Assembly (NCBI RefSeq): GCF_900188275.1
Contig: NZ_FZNY01000003.1
Span: 248,001 to 312,000, forward strand
Origin: Dokdonia pacifica
GTDB lineage: Bacteria > Bacteroidota > Bacteroidia > Flavobacteriales > Flavobacteriaceae
Length of the DNA: 64,000 nucleotides
Direction: 5' to 3'
Positions 2,590 to 62,036 of this stretch are shown in pieces. The translations under genes and the position numbers were made by a program. The notes below the pieces were generated by a model. The model was not told where the DNA came from. It saw nothing but the letters and a program-made list of their open reading frames with translations, and made no database searches. Numbering within the stretch: the first letter of the stretch is position 1; every line of letters starts with the position of its first letter.

Positions 2590-2604
2590 CGCTTTCGCGA
2601 AAGC
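2590..2604. repeat. CGCTTTCGCGAAAGC palindrome, intergenic
   Basis: A copy of the short palindromic repeat, ending 9 bp before the ligA ATG, so it lies in the likely leader or ribosome-binding region of ligA. The flanks (ATA before, ATATA after) keep part of the TATA ends seen on other copies. Confidence 0.85.
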
Positions 2605-2613
2605 ATATAATTA

Positions 2614-4608
2614 ATGAATATAGAACAACAGATTACATCCCTACGTAAAGAACTTCAAGAACATAATCACAGGTACTATGTGCTTGATAACCCGGTAATT
2701 TCAGATTTTGAATTTGATCAAATGCTTAAACAGTTACAAGCATTGGAAGCGGCACATCCAGAATATGACGATCCTAATTCACCTTCTAGACGCGTAGGTG
2801 GGGATGTGACAAAAAACTTCAATACAGTCGTTCATGAACACCGAATGTACTCTTTAGATAACTCGTATTCAAAACAAGATTTAGAAGATTGGGAGGTACG
2901 TGTTAAAAAACAAGTAGATGGGGAAGTATCTTATACCTGTGAATTAAAATATGATGGTGCTTCTATAAGTCTTACCTATGAAAATGGAGAGCTAATAAGA
3001 GCATTAACAAGAGGAGATGGTATACAAGGAGATGATGTGACCACAAATATCAAAACAATTAAGTCGGTGCCTTTAAAATTAAAAGGAGATTACCCTCCTA
3101 AATTTGATATTAGAGGAGAAATTATTCTGCCTTGGGATGGGTTTCATAAAATGAATGAAGCTAGAGAAGCACAAGGATTAGAATTGTATCGCAACCCTAG
3201 AAATACAGCTTCTGGAAGCTTAAAATTACAAGACAGTGCAGAGGTTGCAAAACGACCATTAGATTGTCTACTATATAATATAACAGGAAATAACCTCGGT
3301 ATTGCTAGCCAAATGGAGAGCTTGGAAAAAGCACGAGCATGGGGCTTTAAGGTGCCAGATGCTTCTAAACTTGCCAAAAATATAGATGAGGTGTTGGCAT
3401 TTGTAAACCATTGGGATATAGCGCGTCATGACTTGCCGTATGAAACGGATGGCGTAGTGGTGAAAGTGAATAACCTACAACAACAGGAAGAGTTAGGGTA
3501 TACTGCTAAAGCACCTCGTTGGGCTATGGCCTATAAATTTAAAGCAGAACAAGTGTCTACACGCTTACGCGAAATCACATACCAAGTAGGTCGTACAGGA
3601 GCCATTACACCAGTAGCAAACTTAGAGCCTGTAGAACTTGCAGGCACCACGGTAAAAAGAGCTTCCTTGCACAATGCAGATCAAATCGCAAAATTAGACA
3701 TCCGCGAAAATGATGAAGTCTTTGTAGAAAAAGGAGGAGAAATTATTCCTAAAATTATAGCAGTTGATCTTACAAAGAGACCAGAAAGTTCTATCCCAAC
3801 TACGTATATTTCTGAATGCCCAGAATGTACTACGCCATTAGTTCGTAAAGAAGGAGAAGCACAGCATTATTGCCTAAATGAAGTAGGATGTCCTCCCCAA
3901 ATTATAGGGAGAATACAACATTATATCTCTCGGAAAGCATTAGATATAGAAGGTTTAGGGGGAGAAACAGTTGCTTTATTAGTAAAAGAAGGGCTTATTA
4001 CAAATTATGCCGATTTGTATACACTTACCGTCGAACAATTATTGCCATTGGAAAGAATGGCGCAAAAAAGTGCCGAAAACTTAGTGCAAGGCGTACAAGC
4101 GTCTACTACTATTCCTTTTGAACGTGTACTTTTTGGATTAGGGATACGATATGTAGGAGAAACGGTAGCAAAAAAACTTGCAAAGCATTACAAAACTATT
4201 GATGCAATTGCGATAGCTTCAGAAGAAGATCTCGTGAGTGTAGACGAAATTGGAGAAAAAATTGCAGAGAGTGTGGTGGCTTTTTTCGCGAAAGCGGAAA
4301 ATAATACCTTGATAGAAAGGTTAAAATCATACGGTGTACAACTAGAAATTTCAGCAGAGAAATTAGCAGATCAGTCTGATGTCTTACAGGGGAAAACCTT
4401 TGTGGTATCAGGAGTTTTTGAAATGCCTCGTAATGATTTGAAAAAACTAATAGAAGATAATGGAGGAAAAGTATCTAGTTCTATATCTTCTAAAACTTCA
4501 TTTCTTGTAGCGGGAGATAAAATGGGACCTAGTAAGCTTGCAAAGGCTGAAAAACTAGAAGTTACAATGATTTCTGAACAAGAATTTTTAAATATGATTG
4601 AAGATTAA
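2614..4608 (+). CDS. ligA: NAD-dependent DNA ligase LigA
   Basis: 664 residues, the normal length. The adenylation domain carries the KYDG motif with Lys112 as the AMP-accepting residue. After the OB domain (about 310-390) come a four-cysteine zinc finger (CPEC at about 403, then two further Cys), helix-hairpin-helix repeats (about 480-580) and a C-terminal BRCT domain (about 590-664). The enzyme seals nicks in replication and repair using NAD+. A copy of the genome palindrome lies in frame at 4284-4296, reading Phe-Phe-Ala-Lys-Ala in the HhH/BRCT linker. The 3' end overlaps the next gene, and a decayed copy of that 3' end lies at 5418-5498. Confidence 0.97.
4284..4296. repeat. TTTCGCGAAAGCG palindrome inside ligA
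   Basis: A slightly truncated copy of the genome palindrome within the ligA reading frame, giving Phe-Ala-Lys-Ala. The protein length is normal, so no insertion is evident. Confidence 0.8.
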
Positions 4609-5314
4609 AAAAGAAGTACACATACGTAGCAAAATTTATAGAACATTAACGATTATTGTATCTGTACTGCTCGGACTTGCGACTATATTTTATGATATAG
4701 AGTATACGTTTGTGTTCTTTCCTATGTATGCACTTTTTCTGTTCTTATATCATTATACAGCTACACAAGTATTTAGCAAAGTGCTTCTTGTGTACTTAAT
4801 AACGACAATGCTTTCAGAAATGATATTTTTGTATGACTTTGACAAGTATATTAATATTGCTTCTGCATTACACATCACAAGTCAGCTATGTTTTTTATGG
4901 TTATTAAAACCTATACTTAAAGTTGATATTAAAAAGTTTAGCACCCATAATTTAACGGAGCTAATTATAGGAACCCTCGGGATTAGTTATGTAGTAGGAT
5001 ATTTACTGTATCTAATTTTTCCTTTAATACCAGATTTAACGTTGTTTGTACCTTCTGTTATTTCATTTCTCATCATTGTAATATTGTGTATACGATACCC
5101 TTTCTTTAATAGACATCCTGATAATATTTTACTTTGGGGTGTTGGTGGTGGTATGATTGCTGAGATGATGTGTGCTTTTATTTTTCAATATGTGTCAGAC
5201 CTTAGAATCTTTACCGTGATGGCCCATGTTTTTGGTGCGTTTTTAAAGATTGTTTTTGTTATATATCTTGTACGTTTAAGAAAAAAGGAAGGCATTGATG
5301 AGAGTTATTTATAA
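4598..5314 (+). CDS. integral membrane protein, copy 1 of a tandem pair
   Basis: 238 residues with about seven hydrophobic segments and a basic C-terminus (VRLRKKEG). I do not recognise the family; the architecture loosely recalls YhhN-type membrane proteins, but no diagnostic motif is visible. A TTG at 4598, inside the last codons of ligA, is the only start that keeps the N-terminal KIKK-IYR segment, which is also found in the paralog at 5499-6230. This implies translational coupling to ligA (11-bp overlap). The two paralogs share the motifs FSTHNL-ELIIG, FPLIP and NRHPDN/NKHPDN. Confidence 0.75.
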
Positions 5315-5417
5315 ACGCTGAACCGTCAAGCTTTAGGATGTTTAGCTCAAAAAGTGGAAAAACTTAGTTGCGGTATGTAAGCATATATGATCATTGACTT
5401 TAAATGTGTATTTTTAG

Positions 5418-60596: not shown

Positions 60597-60983
60597 ATGC
60601 TATTAAAATATCCTATCCTTGTTAGTTTTCTATTACTTTATTGTATCACATATGCACAAGAAAAAATAGAAAGCGGAGTCTATATAACCACAGATAAATT
60701 AAAATATATTACTATTAAAGATGATTTTCAATTTGATTACATCGTTTATAGTGGTTATTCTCCTTATATGATAAATGAGCAACGAAAAAAAGAGAAAACA
60801 TCTAGAACATGTGGTGTTGTGGGGTATATAGGAGATTTATATGGTAATGGGACATATCATATTTTGGACGGAAAGTTATTTTTAGAGTTTAAGGTTGATT
60901 ATTTGTCATCTAGAGAAATAGATAGAAGGTTAATAGAAGGTTGTGTCTTTGAAATATCTCAATTAGAAAAAATAGAGGAATGA
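60597..60983 (+). CDS. hypothetical secreted protein
   Basis: 128 residues with signal peptide LKYPILVSFLLLYCITYAQ. The mature part has YITTDKLKYITIKDDFQFDYIVYSGY and a late LFLEFKVDYL; no family is recognised. Two Cys occur in the mature part (one in TCGVVGYIG, one in EGCVFEI). Confidence 0.6.
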   Translation: MLLKYPILVSFLLLYCITYAQEKIESGVYITTDKLKYITIKDDFQFDYIVYSGYSPYMINEQRKKEKTSRTCGVVGYIGDLYGNGTYHILDGKLFLEFKVDYLSSREIDRRLIEGCVFEISQLEKIEE

Positions 60984-61070
60984 AAAACGAAAAGGAGTGC
61001 ATACATATTAAAAAATAAACGCCGATATTTGTCTTTCAAAACGAAAATCAACTTTTAACCGAATATTACA

Positions 61071-61892
61071 ATGGGGTATAACTTACTAAAAGGAAAAAAA
61101 GGAATCATTTTTGGAGCATTAGATGCAAATTCTATCGCATGGAAAACTGCAGAACGTGTACACGAAGAAGGTGGGGAATTTGTATTGACCAATGCGCCTA
61201 TCGCAATGAGAATGGGAGCTTTAAATACACTTGCAGAACAAACTGGTTCTGAAATTGTTCCTGCCGATGCTACTTCTATAGAAGACCTTGAAAACTTAGT
61301 AGAAAAAGCACAAGAAATCTTAGGCGGTAAGCTTGATTTTGTATTACACTCTATCGGAATGTCTGTAAATGTACGTAAAGGACGCGCGTACACAGATCAA
61401 AATTATGCTTGGACAGAAAAAGGATGGGATGTAAGTGCTGTTTCTTTTCATAAAACCATGCAAACATTATATAAGAAAGATGCCATGAATGAGTGGGGAA
61501 GTATTGTAGGTTTAACCTACATGGCTGCACAGCGTGTATTTCCTGATTATAATGATATGGCAGATAATAAAGCTTTTCTAGAATCGATTGCGCGTAGTTT
61601 TGGATACCATTTTGGAAAAGAGAAAAACGTACGTGTAAATACGATCTCTCAATCACCTACACCTACCACGGCTGGACAAGGTGTAAAAGGATTTGACGGA
61701 TTTATTGCTTTTGCAGAAAAAATGAGTCCGTTAGGAAATGCAACAGCACAAGATTGTGCAGACTATACGGTGACGTTGTTTTCAGATCTTACAAAACGTG
61801 TAACCATGCAGAATCTCTATAATGATGGCGGTTTTAGTAATACCGGAGTAAGTAGAGAAGTAATGGATGCTTTTGTGAAAGATCAAGAATAA
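61071..61892 (+). CDS. fabI: enoyl-ACP reductase FabI
   Basis: 273 residues, SDR fold. The NAD(H) loop is FGALDANSIAW; the active site is Tyr150 and Tyr160 with Lys167 (Tyr-x6-Lys) in LTYMAAQRVFPDYNDMADNKAF. The C-terminus has NLYNDGGFSNTG. It reduces the enoyl-ACP double bond in the last step of each fatty-acid elongation cycle, and is the target class of triclosan-like inhibitors. An element (F) begins 15 bp after its stop. Confidence 0.94.
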   Translation: MGYNLLKGKKGIIFGALDANSIAWKTAERVHEEGGEFVLTNAPIAMRMGALNTLAEQTGSEIVPADATSIEDLENLVEKAQEILGGKLDFVLHSIGMSVNVRKGRAYTDQNYAWTEKGWDVSAVSFHKTMQTLYKKDAMNEWGSIVGLTYMAAQRVFPDYNDMADNKAFLESIARSFGYHFGKEKNVRVNTISQSPTPTTAGQGVKGFDGFIAFAEKMSPLGNATAQDCADYTVTLFSDLTKRVTMQNLYNDGGFSNTGVSREVMDAFVKDQE

Positions 61893-61906
61893 TAGAAAGG
61901 TAATTA

Positions 61907-62036
61907 CGCTTTCGCGAAATCGAACTTGTGAGATTCACGACTGTAAGGAGAATGAAATGGTAAATCGAGCTTGCGAGACCTGCCTGCCGGCAGGCAGGTT
62001 CACGACCGGAGGGAGAGCGAAGCGTTAAAGCGTATA
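61907..62036 (+). repeat. composite palindromic element F (two units, perfect inner palindrome)
   Basis: Head 61907-61919, unit 1 61920-61964 (45 bp), tail unit 61965-62029 (45+20 bp) with the perfect palindrome CCTGCCTGCCGGCAGGCAGG at 61979-61998 between GAGA and TTCACGACC, and tail GCGTATA 62030-62036. It is the best-preserved copy and suits as the reference for the family. Confidence 0.9.

Follow-up and report, generated by a model that had tools for sequence, protein, structure and literature searches.

The 64,000-nucleotide stretch of the Dokdonia pacifica genome analyzed here (the window; contig NZ_FZNY01000003.1, positions 248,001 to 312,000) contains 18 exact copies of a 10-bp palindrome, TTTCGCGAAA, between positions 2593 and 61919, and the excess of this word holds genome-wide. 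The 10-mer is the core of a larger symmetric site, some 52 bp long, consisting of a G/T-rich arm, CGC, TTTCGCGAAA, GCG, and an A/C-rich arm, and its copies are spaced far more evenly than chance in all four genomes sampled. We read the element as one resembling HIP1, the highly iterated palindrome (HIP) of cyanobacteria, and DNA uptake signals, bound by a putative dimeric, sequence-specific protein. For its function we have a tentative preference, held with less than even confidence: the site may serve as an uptake-signal-like mark by which cells recognize their own kind of DNA.

A preliminary description of the window had put the 18 copies against fewer than 0.1 expected by chance at about 35% GC, with one copy per 3.5 kb or so and half of them inside genes. 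These figures hold up well: shuffled sequence gives a mean of 0.02 copies and reached 18 in none of 100 shuffles, the GC content is 33.7%, the mean spacing is 3.49 kb, and the copies divide into 9 within and 9 outside open reading frames (ORFs), using a greedy set of ORFs of at least 80 aa. The 5.52-Mb genome as a whole (G000) has 1,195 exact copies of TTTCGCGAAA, compared with 15 of the control, the same word read backward, which is the gross genome-wide excess of one palindrome that characterizes a highly iterated palindrome. Markov models of orders 1 to 4, computed with the sites masked, predict 0.09–0.41 copies in a 464-kb sample of G000 in which 99 are observed; they replaced a maximal-order Markov test, which is uninformative because its sub-words are inflated by the motif itself. 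The genome-wide count is therefore far from what shorter words predict. Allowing up to one mismatch to TTTCGCGAAA raises the G000 total to 1,511, that is, 316 near-misses versus 435 for the control word, and since these neighbors are no commoner than those of the control, there is no cloud of decayed copies in G000. The 16-mer CGCTTTCGCGAAAGCG, previously given as the common full form, is indeed the most usual form (576 copies in G000) but is not universal, being perfect in only 6 of the 18 window copies.

Among 249 genomes of the family searched with CGCTTTCGCGAAAGCG, 32 have a match: 5 are rich, 27 carry 1–12 copies, and the other 217 have none. Besides G000, the rich genomes are G206 from the same genus (630 copies), G010 (495), G242 (579), and G190 (153), so that the five fall in three genera. 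Within a sample of 296 genomes of the class, which includes G000 and excludes the other four, only the window's own genome is strongly enriched in the 10-mer; one genome from another family has 30 copies versus 4 of the control. For the RecN protein of the window, three named uncultured Dokdonia contigs give matches at 87–92% identity. In a recN tree of 44 rows, Dokdonia, G206, G190, and the motif-poor G144 form one clade with support 100/99, and G010 and G242 lie far off on a long branch. Because the starred branches of this tree force at least two label changes, the motif either is old and was lost several times or had two or more separate origins or acquisitions.

The preliminary description covered only part of the site, which comprises TWCGCTTTCGCGAAAGCGWA and G/T-rich arms that extend about 21 bp past the core. 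The consensus of 218 sites, drawn from G000, G206, and G242, reads T-W-CGC-TTTCGCGAAA-GCG-W-A, and the 5′ arm, read on either strand, is G/T-rich and C-poor to about −21, where the bias fades. This bias is position-specific (T or G in 81% at −12, no preference at −10), takes the same form in 106 genic as in 112 intergenic sites, and recurs more weakly in G190; the arms are thus observed in three genera. When oriented by gene, the arms differ little, with a G+T fraction of 0.61 upstream and 0.66 downstream. The palindromic agreement of the two halves at single positions is close to the expectation for independent halves, and four of six pooled permutation tests detected no excess. Since the halves are nearly independent, a dimeric protein with two half-sites fits better than a hairpin. 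The earlier suggestion of a protein-binding site is accordingly strengthened by near-independent half-sites and by position-specific arms common to genic and intergenic copies; the protein recognizer itself we infer.

Spacing was measured on 99 sites in 464 kb of G000, 71 in 240 kb of G206, 48 in 200 kb of G242, and 67 in 400 kb of separate stretches of G190. The coefficients of variation of the intervals are, in that order, 0.55, 0.58, 0.46, and 0.63, whereas random placement gives 0.99, 0.99, 0.98, and 0.87. The G190 value corresponds to P = 0.0013, and for each of the other three genomes none of 3,000 simulations gave a value as low; the inference rests on these simulations, the 9-mer control comprising only 14 words. 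Intervals shorter than 1 kb number 2 of 97, 2 of 70, 0 of 47, and 2 of 47 versus 19.5, 17.9, 10.2, and 9.7 expected. In G000, G206, and G242, the evenness is still significant when the genic or intergenic class of each site is kept and at most one site is allowed per intergenic region. No stretch is empty among twenty taken around the single-contig genome G190, which hold 1 to 7 copies each (mean 3.35, variance ratio 0.79). Per base, intergenic DNA is enriched 4.2- to 4.5-fold in G000, G206, and G242 and 1.3-fold in G190; the copies within ORFs are 46 of the 99 in G000 and 55 of the 67 in G190. Intergenic copies lie a median of 34 bp from a stop codon in both G000 and G242 (116 and 117 bp, respectively, for random points) and 42 bp in G190 (128 bp for random points, on 8 distances); G206 has no such bias (94 versus 89 bp). 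The idea that clustered sites mark the gene of the recognizer is rejected, as the listed close pairs adjoin different genes, by eye mostly housekeeping ones.

Five of the nine genic window sites, those in ligA, dapA, purC, agcS, and recN, were compared with relatives. The exact motif occupies the same place in G206 in four of these genes (ligA, dapA, agcS, and recN) and in G190 in two (purC and recN). G031 and G144 carry none of the five sites, and none is shared by G010 and G242, whose agcS relatives are only 40% identical. No motif-free relative has a motif-sized gap at any of the five; the small gaps present are of one residue at the site in G190 dapA and lie a few residues away in the 40% identical agcS relatives. 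At the recN site, 28 plus 10 loci of other genera, from two comparisons, have other residues at unchanged length, and two of these rows (L011 and L218) have one gap each way, again leaving the length unchanged. Given that motif-free relatives lack a motif-sized gap, the genic copies compared arose by base substitution, as words of the HIP class spread. Mobile insertion, of the repetitive extragenic palindromic (REP) or miniature inverted-repeat transposable element (MITE) kind, is rejected at all five sites, where the orthologs do not pair an inserted copy with an empty site.

The motif is also carried by mobile DNA. In eight of the 27 low-copy genomes, 25 of the 27 16-mers were examined; 24 of these 25 lie within stretches homologous to another of these genomes, and 22 of the 24 shared copies are in, or homologous to, a stretch (L156) that, like L157–L167, by eye encodes metal resistance: an RND pump, a TolC-like protein, a multicopper oxidase, and copper ATPases. 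Stretches of this type, with the Dokdonia-type motif, are common to several Flavobacteriaceae genera, and this shared homology suggests that the islands have moved between genera. Where island stretches are 67–89% identical, the partner keeps an exact core in 94 of 134 comparisons, versus 13% of random 10-mers, counted over ordered, non-independent pairs of stretches selected for motif presence; such conservation would be expected if donors maintain the sites. Among viral contigs, the 16-mer occurs in 41 stretches, seven of which have a GC fraction above 0.5 and may be chance matches, and one contig has, by eye, genes of a Mu-like kind for terminase, portal, and tail proteins. Relatives found through the portal protein, and thus not selected for the motif, include two at 65–68% amino acid identity with 3 cores per 22-kb stretch, the remaining three matches being 100% identical copies. 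A phage site near the portal gene is kept between relatives at about 66–68% nucleotide identity. In the islands the motif may be a tag of past transfer, and the word may help to trace where in the family mobile islands and phages come from.

Candidate recognizers were sought through protein families. In a search over 25 genomes, PF00145 (C5 methyltransferase) was found in two of the five rich genomes (G206 and G010) and PF01555 also in two (G010 and G190); over 8 genomes, PF02086 was found in two (G000 and G206) and PF02384 in four of the five (not G190) as well as in all 3 motif-poor genomes. Each of these four methyltransferase families, the only ones searched, is thus missing from at least one rich genome, which leaves the earlier mention of a methylating protein unsupported and rejects all four as the common recognizer. 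A PilB/PilT-type ATPase (PF00437) is above cut-off in G000 and G242. ParB_N occurs in one protein in four of the five rich genomes and in two proteins in G000, the second of which (a 616-aa frame) has counterparts in motif-poor genomes. As a binder, a Noc-like ParB paralog is therefore rejected, none being present in four of the five. The alternative earlier mention, of a chromosome-organizing protein, keeps the even spacing and the lack of empty stretches in G190 in its favor and has the single ParB-domain protein of those four genomes against it.

Two readings of the function lead: self-recognition, which we prefer, and chromosome organization, which fits nearly as well. We lean to the former because the even spacing, the strong core with weak T-rich flanks, the spread by substitution, and the presence on mobile DNA fit a drive by biased exchange. 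Under such a scheme, the two half-sites would be read by a putative dimeric, sequence-specific DNA-binding protein, DNA with a perfect site would be favored during exchange between cells, and each new perfect site would spread via biased recombination. A second site within about 1 kb would add nothing, which would produce the even spacing, and phages and resistance islands resident in such hosts would gain the mark too. We regard as rather unlikely the broader proposal of a palindromic self-recognition signal in Bacteroidota, with a dimeric flavobacterial receptor for the site of about 52 bp, a word that two or more distant lineages acquired or kept through losses, and its carriage as a passport by phages and resistance islands. 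The DNA uptake sequences (DUS) of Neisseria and the uptake signal sequences (USS) of Haemophilus, the latter with weaker T-rich flanks, resemble the element in having more than 1,000 perfect copies, a strong core with such flanks, even spacing, and copies in ORFs. They differ in that the site here is symmetric, not a directional word, and in that type IV pilus machinery, represented by pilus-type ATPases, was not found in three of the five rich genomes. Even spacing and copies in ORFs are features of uptake sequences in the portion of PMC1939737 consulted, where the spacing is also read as a replication, repair, or compaction signal. Riemerella columbina is described as competent, with a preference for DNA of its own kind (PMC7965970), and transformation of R. 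anatipestifer requires proteins unlike the known machinery, with homologs mainly in Flavobacteriaceae (PMC8459023).

Several points weigh against self-recognition. Flavobacterium johnsoniae is described as not competent, and for Riemerella no uptake signal is established, in the part of PMC7965970 consulted; classical uptake signals are non-palindromic (PMC1939737, in part). PF00437 was not found above cut-off in G206, G010, and G190, so that these three are unlikely to take up DNA through a classical type IV pilus, and none of the methyltransferase, PF00437, and ParB_N searches returned a recognizer that fits all rich hosts. The two remaining pooled tests of half-site agreement gave a weak excess (genic sites at −3..0, P = 0.012; intergenic sites at −8..−3, P = 0.046). 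Only G000 and G242 lack a cloud of decayed copies; the G206 and G190 samples contain some excess of one-mismatch copies (37 versus 10 and 49 versus 26), most often at the third T. The Mu-like phages (by eye; L077, L094, and L206–L213) carry the core at 0.09–0.27 per kb; the islands and most phage contigs were chosen for the motif, which inflates its density in them, and a distant phage relative found via its terminase (L214, 34% identity) has no core sites.

The other leading reading, which we hold to be possible though somewhat doubtful, is a nucleoid-associated or domain-forming protein of the three flavobacterial genera with a site every 3.4–6 kb round the chromosome. The symmetric, dimer-type site, the even spacing with few close pairs, and the low variance ratio of the twenty G190 stretches agree with it; Mu-like phages and mobile islands carry the motif too, however, and the ParB_N results give it no cognate ParB-family paralog in four of the five rich genomes. 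The sites of Noc, SlmA, MatP, and ParB are likewise palindromic sites of chromosome proteins, but they number in the tens and have positional bias, whereas here there are more than 1,000 in G000 and no empty stretch in G190. A site that controls recombination or nucleases in the manner of Chi, or a strong topoisomerase site, needed by phages as well, seems improbable. Chi sites have a similar density in Escherichia coli to the roughly 1 per 4.6 kb here, and the G/T-rich arms and the copies in phages would suit such a role; against it, Chi sites are short and asymmetric, and enzymes of this kind are widespread whereas the motif is rich in only three of the genera sampled. More improbable still is a HIP driven by methylation, in which a methyltransferase for the inner palindrome and biased mismatch repair would make and maintain the sites, as Elhai proposed for HIP1 (PMC4390886, in part). 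The palindrome, the substitution origin, and the saturation-like spacing all agree with this model, but no searched methyltransferase family is common to the rich genomes. The site of 16–20 bp with arms is also longer than those that methyltransferases are known to read. The likeness to HIP1 (GCGATCGC) drawn in the preliminary description is nevertheless a fair analogy: both are hyperabundant perfect palindromes, restricted to a lineage and present in and between genes, and HIP1 is said to spread by substitution (according to a reference title in PMC4390886). The element differs in sequence and phylum, its nearest named relatives being Dokdonia, in having a 10-bp core within a 16–20-bp palindrome with arms of about 20 bp, and in the failure of PF00145, PF01555, PF02086, and PF02384 to be shared.

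We give very little credence to an RNA or DNA hairpin, such as a transcription terminator. Intergenic copies do lie near stop codons in G000, G242, and G190 (eight distances), but not in G206, and many copies are genic. Compensating changes, which a hairpin needs and a dimer reading half-sites does not, are lacking in the outer half-sites, which vary almost independently apart from the weak excess in two of the six pooled tests. There is little gene-oriented asymmetry, the arms are G/T-rich before and A/C-rich after the core on either strand, opposite to the order in a terminator, and Rfam gave no match within the window. Just as poorly placed is a dispersed mobile repeat of the REP or MITE type that copied itself to many places. 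The element is dispersed, palindromic, and several times denser between genes in three of four genomes, and it shares the first two properties with REPs and bacterial interspersed mosaic elements (BIMEs). REPs are extragenic, though, whereas almost half of the G000 copies are genic, the sites compared point to substitution, and the real inserted repeat is a separate 45-bp unit, described below.

Among the papers listed in open-access searches, which for the exact word were 20 of 65 matches, no title or abstract opening describes a repeat of this word, and the same holds for the papers on Dokdonia and palindromes. The string "palindrom" is absent from the searched text of the Dokdonia PRO95 genome paper (PMC3587595), and a paper on absent words (PMC8034619) contains the 10-mer four times. 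Short words in such excess have posed a puzzle ever since HIP1 and the uptake sequences, and the element offers a test case, as the searched methyltransferase families do not track the word and an explanation by type IV pili does not work in some of the hosts. With motif-rich and motif-poor sister lineages, a symmetric site of extended length, and strong spacing statistics to draw on, the recognizer is findable by one pull-down.

G000 also contains a 45-bp unit, TCGAACTTGTGAGATTCACGACCGTAGGGAGAGCGAAGCGATAAA and variants, that follows TTTCGCGAAA without any gap; past the units, several arrays continue with GCGTATA or GCATATA. Eight of nine arrays in 464 kb of G000 begin at the palindrome, after exclusion of two of 11 pattern hits judged to be chance, and no arrays begin at it in the G206, G242, and G190 samples. 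As the arrays begin there, the palindrome is, in Dokdonia, a place where a REP-like element inserts or is born. The repeat is modular, with an optional GC-rich CCTGCCTGCCGGCAGGCAGG insert, and also occurs in a named Dokdonia contig (L001, at 4972). In the window, plus-strand arrays directly follow TTTCGCGAAA at 55179–55338, with a GC-rich CCTGCCTGCCGGCAGGCA insert, and at 61920–62034; a minus-strand array at 51194–51313 abuts the core at 51314 (all array edges approximate), and a single plus-strand unit directly follows TTTCGCGAAA at 29770–29814. The repeat-bearing regions span 29753–29828, 38865–38945, 48611–48668, 51194–51326, 55162–55340, and 61903–62036; the diverged unit beside 48656 was missed by the array pattern and identified separately. 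A second case of insertion into the site is found in an island copy, where a 24-bp insertion divides the palindrome (L157 versus L165).

The genic window cores, given without strand like the others, lie at 4284–4293 in ligA (2614–4608; frame AFFAKAE, exact at the same site in G206), 9159–9168 in dapA (AFAKA, perfect 16-mer, exact at the same site in G206), 13485–13494 in a 98-aa ORF (perfect 16-mer), 16427–16436 in purC (AFAKA, exact at the same place in G190 and not in G206), 23503–23512 in a TonB-receptor-like ORF (LSRKR, perfect 16-mer), 28429–28438 in the Na:alanine symporter gene agcS (AFAKA, exact in G206), 40058–40067 in an ORF with a Dioxygenase_C domain, and 59577–59586 in recN (58528–60180; AFAKAE, perfect 16-mer, exact in the three named Dokdonia loci, G206, and G190). 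The core at 14380–14389 is at, or just upstream of, the start of an S-adenosylmethionine (SAM) hydroxide adenosyltransferase gene, and that at 48656–48665 is at the 3′ end of a TetR_C_23 gene, adjoined by the diverged unit. Intergenic cores lie at 2593–2602, 11 bp upstream of the ligA ATG; 29760–29769, abutted by one 45-bp unit; 37003–37012 and 45610–45619, both perfect 16-mers; 43727–43736, 14 bp from the stop end of a minus-strand ORF (43751–45439); 51314–51323 and 55169–55178, each abutted by three units, on the minus strand in the former; and 61910–61919, 17 bp after a stop codon and abutted by two units. The 46 genic G000 sites are read as AFAKA in 27 cases, LSRKR in 15, and RFRES in 4. 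Genic copies often fall in core repair or housekeeping genes, such as ligA and recN and, by eye, valS, gapA, and ATP synthase genes (window, G206, and G190 samples).

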